DNA of 54,833 bases from a bacterium (GTDB lineage: Bacteria; Sysuimicrobiota; Sysuimicrobiia; Sysuimicrobiales; Segetimicrobiaceae), in assembly GCA_035295165.1 (NCBI GenBank), contig DATGJN010000006.1:1-54833 (forward strand). The letters run 5' to 3'. The position numbers and the translations under genes were made by a program. The notes beneath the pieces were generated by a model. It did not search any database, was not told the DNA's origin, and saw only the letters and a program-made list of their open reading frames with translations. Shown here piece by piece: positions 31,386-35,950 of the stretch (within the stretch, counting starts at the first letter, position 1; every line of letters starts with the position of its first letter).

Positions 31386-31421
31386 CTGCGCGGCCGCGGC
31401 GCGCGACAGCGCGTAGGCTCC

Positions 31422-32084
31422 CTAGCGCCCCGACGAACGCGGCCTCTCGGCGTTCGCAGTCACGCCATCGCGATCGCCCCACGCGATCACCGACAGGGAT
31501 CCCCCGATCGTCGACTCCGCAAAGTGCAGCACCGCGGCTCTCGACCTGAACGGCAATCGCTTCGCGACCGCCAACTTCGCGATCCCGTGCACGAGCGACC
31601 AGGCCGCAAGCGCCCGTTGCAGCGTATCTCCCGGAGGCAGCGGCCCATCCCGTTGGCACGCCTCGATGAACCGCACCAGCGTGCCGAAGGCTTCGTTGGC
31701 GGCCTCCGTGCACTCCGGATAGTCCGCCTTGGAAACCGGTGTGTCGAACATGACGGTAAAGTGCTCGGGCCGTCGCAGGGCGAACGCCACATAGGCCAGC
31801 CCGGAACGTCGCAGGCGATCCAGCGCCGTGGGCTGTGACGCGGCCGCGTCCAGCATCGCCTGCGTCAGTTCCCGAAATCCCTCCGCCGCCACGGCCGCAA
31901 CAAGCTCTTCCTTGTCGCGGAAATGCCGGTACGGCGCGTTGTGGGACACGCCCGCGCGCCGAGCCACTTCGCGCAACGTGAAACCGCGCGGCCCGACCTC
32001 GGCGACGATGTCGGTCGCCGCTCTGAGGAGGGCCTGTCGCAGGTCTCCGTGGTGGTACGGTCGTCGGCTTCGCATGTTCTCCAT
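31422..32084 (-). CDS. TetR family repressor
   Basis: About 220 residues. N-terminal HTH: YHHGDLRQALLRAATDIVAEVG, then FTLREVARRAGVSHNAPYRHFRDKEEL. The ligand domain belongs to the TetR_C_33-like (WHG) type, with a long variable C-terminus. ATG 32084 is annotated; ATG 32075 is in frame, has GGAG four bases upstream and gives the more usual MRSRRPYHHGD start. Divergent from the desaturase-like gene across 100 bp containing two matching dyads, its presumed operators. The -10 (TATAAG) lies only four bases from ATG 32084, so the message is leaderless or nearly so. Confidence 0.9.
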   Translation of the reverse strand: MENMRSRRPYHHGDLRQALLRAATDIVAEVGPRGFTLREVARRAGVSHNAPYRHFRDKEELVAAVAAEGFRELTQAMLDAAASQPTALDRLRRSGLAYVAFALRRPEHFTVMFDTPVSKADYPECTEAANEAFGTLVRFIEACQRDGPLPPGDTLQRALAAWSLVHGIAKLAVAKRLPFRSRAAVLHFAESTIGGSLSVIAWGDRDGVTANAERPRSSGR

Positions 32085-32088
32085 CTCT

Positions 32089-32117
32089 CTTATAGCACAA
32101 AATGTTGACAAGAGCAA
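32089..32117 (-). promoter_or_regulatory. Promoter of the TetR gene
   Basis: On the minus strand TTGCTC (32117-32112) and TATAAG (32094-32089) are 17 bp apart. The -10 matches five of six positions, the -35 only three. It overlaps the first dyad (32102-32120), so the repressor would also shut off its own gene. Confidence 0.5.
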
Positions 32118-32120
32118 CAT
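32102..32120. promoter_or_regulatory. TetR operator O1
   Basis: A perfect 6-bp inverted repeat ATGTTG-N7-CAACAT. It covers the -35 of the plus promoter and the -35/spacer of the minus promoter. The second dyad at 32136-32154 has the same arm length, spacing and pattern. Confidence 0.7.
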
Positions 32121-32133
32121 CGTGGGGTATGAT
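32105..32133 (+). promoter_or_regulatory. Sigma-70-type promoter of the desaturase-like gene
   Basis: TTGACA (32105-32110) and TATGAT (32128-32133) with exactly 17 bp between: the best promoter in the window, six of six and five of six matches. Transcription should start near 32140, 45 bp before ATG 32185. The strong consensus plus two overlapping dyads suggests a gene held off by TetR and fully on when released. Confidence 0.8.
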
Positions 32134-32135
32134 GT

Positions 32136-32154
32136 ATGTGGGCAGTGTCCACAT
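32136..32154. promoter_or_regulatory. TetR operator O2
   Basis: Inverted repeat ATGTGG-N7-CCACAT, the same design as O1 (shared pattern ATGTKG-N7-CMACAT). Its centre is 34 bp from that of O1, a little over three DNA turns, and it covers the predicted transcription start of the plus gene. Confidence 0.65.
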
Positions 32155-32184
32155 TCACCGGTTCGGCGGAACGGGGTGAGCGCC

Positions 32185-33786
32185 ATGACGCATGTCGGCG
32201 ATTCCTACAAACAGCACCCTGTTGACGACGCCTACGACGTCATCGTCATCGGGTCCGGGATGGGCGGCCTAACCGCCGCCGCCCTGCTCGCCAAACACGC
32301 GGACAAGAAGGTGCTCGTGCTGGAGCGCCACTACGTCGCCGGCGGGTTCACCCAGGTGTTTCGCCGGCCGGGGTACGAGTGGGATGTCGGCGTGCACTAC
32401 GTCGGCCAGGTCACCGACCCTCGGTCCGCGGTCCGGGCCGCGTTCGATCACGTCACCGAGGGGCGTCTGCGCTGGCACCCGATGCCGGACGTCTACGACC
32501 GCATCCAGATCGGCGACCGCCGCTATGACTTCCCGAGCGGCCTGGAGCGCTTCCGCGACCGCATGAAGGGGTACTTTCCGACCGAGGCCGCGGCGATCGA
32601 CCGCTACATCGAGGCCGTATGCGCCGCGGCCCAGGCCAGCGGCCCGTACTTTGCCGAGAAGGCGCTGCCGGGGCCGATCGCCAGCCTGATCGGCGCGCCG
32701 ATGCGCTCGCGGTTCCTGCGCTACGCGGACCAGACCACGGCCGAGGTGCTGGGCCGCCTCACCCGAAACCCCGAGCTCATCGCCGTGCTGGCAGGTCAAT
32801 GGGGCGACTACGGGCTTCCGCCCGGCCAGAGCAGCTTCGGGATGCACGCGATCGTTGCCCACCACTACTTCGAAGGCGCGGCGTATCCAATCGGCGGCGC
32901 ATCCGCGATCGCCGCGGCGATCGCCCCCGTCATCGAGCGCGCCGGCGGCCGCATCGCGGTCGGCGCCGAGGTGCACGAAATTCTGGTACACCGGAACGGC
33001 GCGGCCGGCGTCCGGATGGCCGACGGCCGTGAACTGCGCAGCGCGATCGTGATCAGCGACGCCGGCGCCTACAACACCTACGCCAGGCTGTTGCCCGCGG
33101 ACGCGAGCGCCGGCCTCAACGCGCTCGAGGACCTCAACCGTCTCTCCCCCTCGGGGGCCCACGTCTGTCTGTACGTGGGCCTAAGACGCGACGAGGGCGA
33201 GCCGGAGTTCGACGCGACCAACCTGTGGATCTACCGCGACCGCGACCACGACGCCGCGTTCGCGCGGTTCTCGGCCGACCCGAACGGGGCGTGGCCGTCG
33301 CTGTTCATCTCATTTCCCTCGGCCAAAGATCCGACGTTCGCCCGGCGCTATCCGGGACGCTCCACGATCGAGGTCGTGACGGGAGCGCCCTATGGCTGGT
33401 TTGAGCGCTGGGCCGACACTCGATGGAAGCGGCGCGGGGCGGACTACGACGAGGTCAAGCAGACACTGGCGGCGCGGCTCCTCGGCGAACTCGAGCGCCA
33501 CGTGCCGGCGACGCGGGGGCGGATCGACTACAGCGAACTGTCCACGCCGCTCTCGACCCGGCATTTTGTCAACCATCAGCGCGGAGAGATTTACGGCCCC
33601 GCCGCGGTGCCGGCCCGGTTTCGCGCCCGCGTCCTCGGCGCGCGCACACCCATCCGGAACCTCTATCTTACGGGGCAGGACGCGTGCTCGTCCGGCGTGA
33701 CCGGCGCGCTGTTCGGCGGGATCATCGCGGCGTCGGCAGTCGTCGGCCGAAACCTGGTGTCCGTCGCGTCGCGACCGGCGGCCTGA
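32185..33786 (+). CDS. Phytoene desaturase/carotenoid isomerase/retinol saturase-type FAD oxidoreductase
   Basis: 533 residues. N-terminal FAD motif DVIVIGSGMGGLTAAALLA followed by VLVLERHYVAGGFTQVFRRPGYEWDVGVHYVG, which is the CrtI/CrtISO/RetSat pattern. The C-terminal flavin motif GQDACSSGVTGALFGGI closes the fold. ATG 32185 has GGGGTGAG six bases upstream. No other carotenoid genes are present, and regulation by a TetR next door suggests an inducible lipid or xenobiotic saturase/desaturase rather than a pigment pathway. Members reduce, desaturate or isomerise double bonds of polyenes. Confidence 0.85.
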   Translation: MTHVGDSYKQHPVDDAYDVIVIGSGMGGLTAAALLAKHADKKVLVLERHYVAGGFTQVFRRPGYEWDVGVHYVGQVTDPRSAVRAAFDHVTEGRLRWHPMPDVYDRIQIGDRRYDFPSGLERFRDRMKGYFPTEAAAIDRYIEAVCAAAQASGPYFAEKALPGPIASLIGAPMRSRFLRYADQTTAEVLGRLTRNPELIAVLAGQWGDYGLPPGQSSFGMHAIVAHHYFEGAAYPIGGASAIAAAIAPVIERAGGRIAVGAEVHEILVHRNGAAGVRMADGRELRSAIVISDAGAYNTYARLLPADASAGLNALEDLNRLSPSGAHVCLYVGLRRDEGEPEFDATNLWIYRDRDHDAAFARFSADPNGAWPSLFISFPSAKDPTFARRYPGRSTIEVVTGAPYGWFERWADTRWKRRGADYDEVKQTLAARLLGELERHVPATRGRIDYSELSTPLSTRHFVNHQRGEIYGPAAVPARFRARVLGARTPIRNLYLTGQDACSSGVTGALFGGIIAASAVVGRNLVSVASRPAA

Positions 33787-33787
33787 A

Positions 33788-33810
33788 CCGCGCGCCACGC
33801 CGGCGCGCGG
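33788..33810. terminator. Perfect 9-bp GC hairpin after the desaturase-like gene
   Basis: CCGCGCGCC, a 5-nt loop ACGCC, then GGCGCGCGG, starting two bases after the stop. It sits in the 73-bp gap before the convergent hyuA stop (33860). No T-run follows, as at 4869-4901. Confidence 0.6.
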
Positions 33811-33859
33811 GGGCGACCCGGAGTCCCGCCGCGCAGATCTCGCGCCGCCCGCCGGCCGG

Positions 33860-35950
33860 TTACCGATCCGGGTCGGGTCGCGCCTCGCGCGTGATCACGA
33901 TGCTGCCGCCCGCGTGCACGCGGGCGGTCTGCCCGGGGTACACCACCGTGGTCGTGTCCGGCTGGTCCAGGATCGCCGGGCCGGCCACGACGCCCCCGAC
34001 CGGCAACGCGAAACGATCATAAACCGGCGCCTCGGCATAGCCGCGTTCGGCGAAGTACATCCTGCGCGTGCCCGACGGTGGGGTGGACACGCGCGCGGCC
34101 TCCACCGCGGCGACCGCCGGCGCCGGAAGCGTGTACACGTGTACCCCCCGCACGCCGACGAACTCGACTTCGCTTTGCTCGCTGTGGTGTCCGTAGTAGC
34201 GGTCGTGGACCTCGTGAAAGCGCCGCCGCAGCTCCGCGAGCGCGTCGTCCGTCACCGGACCATCCAGGAGGGACACGCTCAACTCGTACGACTGGCCGAC
34301 GTACCGCATCTCCGCGTACCGCTGAATCGAGACGCCGCCGGGCGGCACGCCTTCGACGCGCATCGCCGCCCCGCAGTGCTCATCCATGTCCGCGAACAGT
34401 GCCGCCAGCTCCGCGGCGGACGCCCGGGCAAACGGTTTCGGGTACGGACGGGCCTGCTCGTGACGAATGTCGGCCATCAGCAGACCGTACGCCGAGGCGA
34501 CGCCGGGCCGCGAGGGCACGACGACCGCCTTGGCGCCGAGCAGGTCCGCCAGCCGCCCCGCGTGGATCGGCCCCGCCCCGCCCATCGCGACGAGCGCGAT
34601 GCCGCGCAGATCGTACCCGCGCCGCACCGACACCAGCCGGACCGCCTCGGCCATCTGGGTGTTGACGATGTCGTGGATGCCCGACGCCGCCTGAGGGACG
34701 TCCATGCCGAGCGGTCCTGCGATCCGCCGAGCGATCGCCTCGTGCGCGCGGTCGGGGTAGAGCTCGAACCCGCCGCCGGCATAGGTGTCGGGATTGAGGT
34801 ACCCGAGTACGAGGCTCGCGTCGGTCACCGTCGGCTCGGTGCCCCCTTTCCCATAGCACGCAGGTCCCGGCACCGCGCCTGCGCTCTCGGGTCCTACCTT
34901 GAGCCCGCCGGCCGCGTCGAGAAACGCGATGCTCCCGCCGCCCGCCCCGATCGTGTGCACGTCCACCATCGGCACGCGGAGCGGGTACTTGTCGATGCGT
35001 CCCTCCGAACTGGTCTCGATGCGGCCGTCCCGCACCATCGCCACGTCGAAACTCGTCCCGCCCATGTCGAGCGTCACGAGGTCGCCGAATCCCGCGGCCC
35101 GGCCCGCCGCTGCGCCGGCGACCACGCCGGCCGCGGGACCGGAGAGCATCGTCCCAACCGGGCGCGCGACCGCGAGCCGCGCCGCGGAAATTCCGCCGTG
35201 GGACTGCATGATCTGAAAGGGACAGTGGAAGCCGTGCCGGCCGAGCTGCTCCCCGAGGTCGGTCAGGTACGACGCGACCGCGGGGCGCAGGTAGGCGTCG
35301 AACGCGGTCACGACCAGCCGCTCGTACTCCCGGAACTTCGGGTCGACCGCCGAGGATAGCGAGACGGGCAGATCCGGGAAGTGCTCCCGGAGGAGCGCGG
35401 CCGTGCGTTGCTCGTGGCCGGGGTGGAGAAACGAGAACAGGTAGCACACCGCGATCGACTCGACGCCGTGCCCGTCCCGCAGCCGCCGCACCGCCTCGAG
35501 CACCGCGCCCTCGTCGAGGGGTTCGACGACGTTCCCGCGCGCGTCCACGCGCTCGGGGATCCCCACGATGCGGCGCCGCGCGGCCAGGAACAGCGGTTCC
35601 TCGGGATCCGCGTTGAGATTGTACATTTCTGTGCGTTTCATCCGGCCGATCGCGAGGACGTCTTCGAACCCGCGCGTCGTCAGGATCCCGAGCGTTGCCC
35701 CCTTGTGCTCGAGCACCGCGTTCGTGCCGATCGTCGTCCCGTGCACCACCCGCTCGACGTCGGCGGGCGCGCACCCCGCCTCAGCGACGATGCTGCGCAG
35801 GCCCTCCAAGAACGCGCCCGCCGGCCGCTTCGGCTGCGACGGGACCTTCAACGCAAACAACGCCTGCCGCTCGCGATCGACGGCGACGACGTCGGTAAAG
35901 GTGCCGCCGACGTCAATCCCGACGATCAGACGAGCCGTCCGGTCAGTCAC
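33860..35950 (-). CDS. hyuA: Hydantoinase/oxoprolinase subunit A
   Basis: 696 residues. ATP-binding core of the acetate/sugar-kinase fold: GIDVGGTFTDVVAVD at the N-terminus, HGTTIGTNAVLEHKGA, LSGPAAGVVAGAA, LDMGGTSFDVAMV and GAGGGSIAFLD. These are the landmarks of N-methylhydantoinase/5-oxoprolinase/acetone carboxylase subunit A. With subunit B it opens or cleaves a cyclic amide using ATP. GTG 35950 has GGAGGG six bases upstream. It follows hyuB by 55 bp as last gene of a transporter-hydantoinase operon. Substrate (hydantoin, N-methylhydantoin, oxoproline or other lactam) not deducible. Confidence 0.93.
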   Translation of the reverse strand: MTDRTARLIVGIDVGGTFTDVVAVDRERQALFALKVPSQPKRPAGAFLEGLRSIVAEAGCAPADVERVVHGTTIGTNAVLEHKGATLGILTTRGFEDVLAIGRMKRTEMYNLNADPEEPLFLAARRRIVGIPERVDARGNVVEPLDEGAVLEAVRRLRDGHGVESIAVCYLFSFLHPGHEQRTAALLREHFPDLPVSLSSAVDPKFREYERLVVTAFDAYLRPAVASYLTDLGEQLGRHGFHCPFQIMQSHGGISAARLAVARPVGTMLSGPAAGVVAGAAAGRAAGFGDLVTLDMGGTSFDVAMVRDGRIETSSEGRIDKYPLRVPMVDVHTIGAGGGSIAFLDAAGGLKVGPESAGAVPGPACYGKGGTEPTVTDASLVLGYLNPDTYAGGGFELYPDRAHEAIARRIAGPLGMDVPQAASGIHDIVNTQMAEAVRLVSVRRGYDLRGIALVAMGGAGPIHAGRLADLLGAKAVVVPSRPGVASAYGLLMADIRHEQARPYPKPFARASAAELAALFADMDEHCGAAMRVEGVPPGGVSIQRYAEMRYVGQSYELSVSLLDGPVTDDALAELRRRFHEVHDRYYGHHSEQSEVEFVGVRGVHVYTLPAPAVAAVEAARVSTPPSGTRRMYFAERGYAEAPVYDRFALPVGGVVAGPAILDQPDTTTVVYPGQTARVHAGGSIVITREARPDPDR

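Follow-up and report, generated by a model that had tools for sequence, protein, structure and literature searches.

In the window, by which the whole analysed stretch of 54,833 nucleotides is meant, a TetR-family regulator gene and an oxidoreductase gene diverge from a shared spacer of 109 bp that contains two closely similar palindromic dyads. This raises the question of whether the dyads are the operators of the regulator and, if so, how they control the two genes. The two genes very probably constitute a self-contained regulator-enzyme cassette, itself probably acquired horizontally, in which the regulator would exert tetR/tetA-like repression through both sites. The features concerned are as follows.

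31422–32075, minus strand: TetR-family regulator of the YHHGDLR type (TetR_N + TetR_C_33), with Pfam domains above the gathering cut-off
32089–32117, minus strand: predicted promoter of the TetR gene, with −35 TTGCTC (32117–32112), a 17-bp spacer and −10 TATAAG (32094–32089)
32102–32120, no strand: predicted operator 1, ATGTTGACAAGAGCAACAT, read as ATGTTG-ACAAGAG-CAACAT
32105–32133, plus strand: oxidoreductase promoter TTGACA-17-TATGAT, score 11/12, with TTGACA invariant across three orthologous spacers
32136–32154, no strand: predicted operator 2, ATGTGGGCAGTGTCCACAT, read as ATGTGG-GCAGTGT-CCACAT
32185–33786, plus strand: FAD-dependent oxidoreductase of the CrtI / carotenoid isomerase / retinol saturase superfamily, 533 aa

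The regulator matches PF00440 with 50.1 bits (cut-off 24) and PF13305 with 65.6 bits (cut-off 26.8), and its domains assign it to the TetR_C_33 (YHHGDLR) subfamily. A second trait of this subfamily, derived here, is the presence of paired sites resembling ATGTTGAC-N3-GTCAACAT upstream of the regulator gene, and these are found with 14/16 and 13/16 matching positions. The start codon is most likely the ATG at 32075 (MRSRRPYHHGDLR) and not that at 32084, because the former matches the aligned methionine of the orthologue at locus L033 and because the predicted transcription start (∼32082, minus strand) falls downstream of the latter. The best sequence match in the PDB is entry 3on2 (residues 7–177, E 1.6e-28), which is likewise a TetR protein with a TetR_C_33 domain; it is annotated only as a probable regulator, and we know of no operator or ligand for it.

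The two dyads lie where the sequence-only reading had placed them, with their centres 34 bp apart, and TTGACA-17-TATGAT is indeed the best promoter in the window, being the sole sigma-70-like match of at least 10/12 on either strand of the 54.8 kb. The dyads had been described as flanking this promoter; instead, they overlap it, with the TTGACA element (32105–32110) inside dyad 1 and dyad 2 starting 3 bp past the −10 element. The earlier placement of dyad 1 over the promoter of the TetR gene is plausible, as a predicted minus-strand promoter with TGC preceding its −10 element is located there, and a TTGC-17-TGC-TANNAN-like layout is kept in all three orthologous pairs, including those at L033 and L045. 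Operator 1 thus spans the −35 element of the oxidoreductase promoter together with the predicted −35 element and part of the spacer of the TetR promoter, while operator 2 spans the predicted transcription start of the oxidoreductase gene (∼32140, plus strand). Subject to the prediction of the TetR promoter, this is the layout of tetR/tetA, with regulator and target divergent and operators over both promoters.

In the mechanism that we propose, the TetR protein would bind as a dimer to each of the two 19-bp palindromic operators. Occupation of operator 1 would repress both divergent promoters, resulting in autoregulation of the TetR gene and repression of the oxidoreductase gene, because this operator overlaps the −35 elements of both. 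Binding to operator 2 would block the oxidoreductase gene alone and tighten its repression, and a small lipophilic ligand, probably the substrate or product of the enzyme, would release the repressor.

The two dyads share the design ATGTKG-N7-CMACAT, and the search for further copies that the sequence-only reading had suggested finds no other match in the 4.79-Mb genome, with none for a reversed-pattern control. Both sites do fit this consensus as first described, but the full operator is wider, and the window sites appear from comparison with related loci to be degenerate versions of ATGTTGAC-N3-GTCAACAT, to which operator 1 has two mismatches and operator 2 three. Operator 1 is the best match to this wider sequence in the genome and the only one with at most two mismatches. 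At three mismatches the genome contains 14 matches versus 4 for the control, two of the 14 being the operators; as this is close to the control level, no further regulon sites are claimed.

The sequence-only reading had staked its prediction on conservation of the dyads in related genomes. None of the 42 other genomes in the class to which the window belongs has the cassette, a close orthologue of the TetR protein or the enzyme, and conservation was therefore assessed in other phyla. In a Bryobacterales genome (G043, locus L033) an orthologous divergent pair is present, with a TetR protein and an enzyme that are 58% and 62% identical, respectively, to those of the window. The spacer of this pair contains ATGTTGACAGGCGCAACAT and ATGTGGCTGATGTCAACAT, 31 bp apart, which are the sole two matches to the design in the 8.7-Mb genome. 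In the third pair (genome G215, locus L045; TetR 51%, enzyme 58% identical) the spacer contains ATGTTGACAGCAGCAACTT and ATGTTGTCAGCGTCAACAT, 33 bp apart, one dyad being perfect and the other having a single changed base. Operator 1 is thus kept in L033 and, with one arm base changed, in G215, whereas the counterparts of operator 2 are ATGTGGCTGATGTCAACAT and ATGTTGTCAGCGTCAACAT. When the three spacers are aligned, ATGTTGACA does not vary and conservation is highest in islands formed by the dyad arms; in addition, the recognition-helix stretch VSHNAPYRHF is identical in the three TetR proteins. Enzyme relatives that lack an adjacent TetR gene show no such dyads, both in Myxococcales (L034, enzyme 55% identical) and in the phylum of G043 (L046–L059), from which it follows that the sites belong to the regulator and not to the enzyme. 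A single match to the design in the genome of L034, at the unrelated locus L037, was taken as chance. The prediction that these putative sites are the operators of the TetR protein is hence supported by conservation of the dyads with both the gene pair and the regulator subfamily. The spacing of the centres differs among the orthologues (34, 31 and 33 bp), and cooperative binding on one face of the DNA was rejected, as spacings of 27, 31, 33, 34, 41 and 43 bp among the relatives do not keep the helical phase.

More distant TetR relatives (∼36–50% identical) are associated with fuller ATGTTGAC-N3-GTCAACAT sites, usually in two copies. Of 396 genomes of the G043 phylum, 26 have the exact core TGTTGAC-N3-GTCAACA and none the reversed control; in 20 of the 26, a copy is located immediately upstream of a relative of the window regulator. 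Locus L080 is one ATGTTGACNNNGTCAACAT member. The 200 bp upstream of each regulator were scored against 16 fixed positions, with a threshold of 12/16. The best site reaches this threshold for 27 of 30 relatives in Acidobacteriota (the phylum of G043; two of the orthologous pairs are included), 13 of 30 in Myxococcota (the G044 set) and 8 of 12 on plasmids, compared with 0 of 22 distant TetR controls and less than 1% of shuffles. A second site does so at 25/30, 8/30 and 5/12 of the loci, respectively, and again at 0/22 controls. The acidobacterial genomes are often close relatives, such that their counts overstate independence and the consensus derives partly from non-independent sequences; there is more diversity in the sets from myxobacteria and plasmids. 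For over half of the relatives in Myxococcota, the 200 bp upstream contain no clear site.

Three other explanations of the spacer can be weighed against this background. That the dyads are merely chance palindromes in an AT-rich promoter island is strongly disfavoured and has a negligible probability. A single perfect palindrome with 6-bp arms is unremarkable in such a spacer, since at least one occurs in 24% of its dinucleotide shuffles, but two palindromes that share a 7-bp spacer and have arms agreeing at 5/6 positions or more arise in 0.005% of 20,000 shuffles, and neither the uniqueness of the design to these sites in two whole genomes nor its conservation across phyla would be expected from chance. 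It is distinctly improbable that operator 1 is the sole real operator, with operator 2 being a chance or decayed dyad or a site for another regulator. In line with this possibility, 12 other positions in the genome deviate from the subfamily consensus by the same number of bases as operator 2; well-formed counterparts nevertheless occupy the equivalent place in L033 and G215, and the acidobacterial relatives as a rule have two sites.

The regulator might also be an activator or a dual regulator, which would repress its own gene via operator 1 and activate, or only weakly affect, the oxidoreductase gene. Some TetR-family proteins do activate, and the N-terminal region of the window protein has a weak, sub-cut-off NCBIfam similarity to the activator FasR. 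However, the oxidoreductase promoter is near consensus and needs no activator, while a site at +1, as found for operator 2, is a repressing position, and we consider this role unlikely. Repression of both genes from two operators thus accounts best for the position and conservation of the sites.

A divergent TetR module with paired operators is an already known, ordinary kind of arrangement. The locus resembles tetR/tetA, where two 15-bp tetO sites are 11 bp apart (PMC9736018), in having a regulator and a target that diverge from a spacer with two palindromic operators over both promoters. Unlike tetR/tetA, the predicted operators are 19 bp long, follow ATGTTGAC-N3-GTCAACAT and are separated by 15 bp, the regulator has another C-terminal domain (TetR_C_33), and an oxidoreductase takes the place of the efflux pump as target. 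The TetR-type protein PA3973 of Pseudomonas aeruginosa provides a further parallel, as it represses adjacent oxidoreductase-type genes and its own promoter is overlaid by two palindromes a short distance apart; its 14-bp operator (TGAATCC/GGATTCA) is, however, different in sequence, and more than 300 genomic sites are reported for it (PMC9736018), versus two for the window design. A limited literature search, which is no proof of novelty, found no described operator matching this one or belonging to this large TetR subfamily. For an uncharacterised regulator, the present analysis supplies a directly testable predicted operator.

The TetR gene and the oxidoreductase gene are each single-gene units, and the neighbours on either side are convergent to them. 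In two sister species the cassette is missing and its flanking genes, one for a DAO-family oxidase and the other for hydantoinase A, lie next to each other; the gap between the matched flanking blocks is ∼100–170 bp, compared with a cassette of 2.4 kb in the window. The cassette has the form of a clean insertion, with window positions 31386–33862 corresponding to G026:C94:33353–33454 and G027:C71:9653–9825. Its absence between the same flanking genes suggests that the two-gene cassette was probably acquired by horizontal transfer; gain is the simplest reading of the empty site, loss in the other species being also possible. No mobile-element signature or target duplication is evident at the cassette ends, and the G+C content equals that of the rest of the window. 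As the flanking genes adjoin one another in the sister species even though the cassette is missing there, they reveal little about the ligand. An inducer, once found, would point to the substrate of the enzyme, since the two-gene cassette isolates the enzyme from its surroundings.

The oxidoreductase matches PF13450 and PF01593 above their cut-offs, and phmmer matches it to PDB entries 4rep and 4dgk. Its N-terminal dinucleotide-binding domain and overall similarity place it in the superfamily of CrtI / retinol saturase-like FAD oxidoreductases. The best NCBIfam models, TIGR02730 (141 bits, cut-off 586.9) and TIGR02734 (115.6 bits, cut-off 238.1), align over nearly the full length with scores far below the cut-offs, and identification as CrtISO or CrtI proper was rejected. 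The earlier label of a desaturase/saturase-like enzyme is accordingly appropriate at the superfamily level and no further. A phytoene/squalene synthase (PF00494) was not detected in this genome, which is 97.9% complete; of 14 control genomes, 7 gave a match with this search. A role in carotenoid biosynthesis is therefore unlikely, and was set aside also in view of the low scores against the carotenoid models. Nothing here supports the polyene or fatty-acid ligand suggested previously. It is possible that an isoprenoid, alicyclic or fatty compound is taken up from outside and converted. DesT and FabR are TetR-type regulators of fatty-acid desaturation and share with the window protein the control of a gene described as a desaturase; the targets of DesT are, however, membrane di-iron fatty-acid desaturases, whereas the window enzyme, an FAD protein, belongs to the CrtI superfamily.

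The neighbours of the TetR relatives are varied. In four of the 30 myxobacterial loci (L133, L144, L146 and L157) the divergent gene encodes a homologue of the enzyme (32–36% identical). On a Thauera plasmid the divergent gene encodes an FAD oxidoreductase, and the paired sites are ATGTTTAC-N3-GTAAAC-like; other relatives adjoin different, unrelated genes. The subfamily operator alone therefore does not identify the ligand. The subfamily-wide operator rule is a more interesting product than the single locus: it connects regulators with their targets in genomes that lack annotation, and it suggests biosensor parts that are ready for use. In its broadest form, to which we give even chances, one operator grammar would be common to the whole YHHGDLR/TetR_C_33 subfamily, in at least Acidobacteriota, Myxococcota, Pseudomonadota and Actinomycetota: two 19-bp palindromes with a half-site, ATGTTGACA, that doubles as a consensus −35 element. 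If so, regulator, promoter and operators would form a transferable module paired with many different enzymes, and sequence could directly reveal the operators of a great many TetR proteins that are still uncharacterised.

Several observations were made on individual branches. In L062–L079 and similar acidobacterial loci the operator centres are 27 bp apart, with TTGACA in one operator, TATGTT at the edge of the other and 17 bp between these elements; the promoter thus seems to be made up of the operators themselves. At L096 and L108 (G161:C16:695130 and G228:C1:1505320) the same genomes have extra exact TGTTGAC-N3-GTCAACA sites, which lie upstream of the gene for a probable membrane protein of ∼363 aa and are bordered on the opposite side by an RraA-like reading frame; these are probable extra regulon members of the acidobacterial regulator. 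Several acidobacterial genomes (G161:C43:172580, G204:C3:372664 (L107) and similar) have one more exact copy of the operator at a distance of ∼4 kb from the TetR gene. The reading frame that follows this copy is similar to the gene next to the TetR operators in L062. Branch-specific operator variants occur at L117 (Thauera sp. K11 plasmid pTX1), at L126 and L120–L121 (Streptomyces plasmids) and at L123 (Roseomonas). These variants, ATGTTTAC..GTAAAC, ATCTTGAC..CAAGAT and ATGTGTAC..ACAT, are changed at matching positions in both arms and would be useful to map the specificity of the recognition helix.
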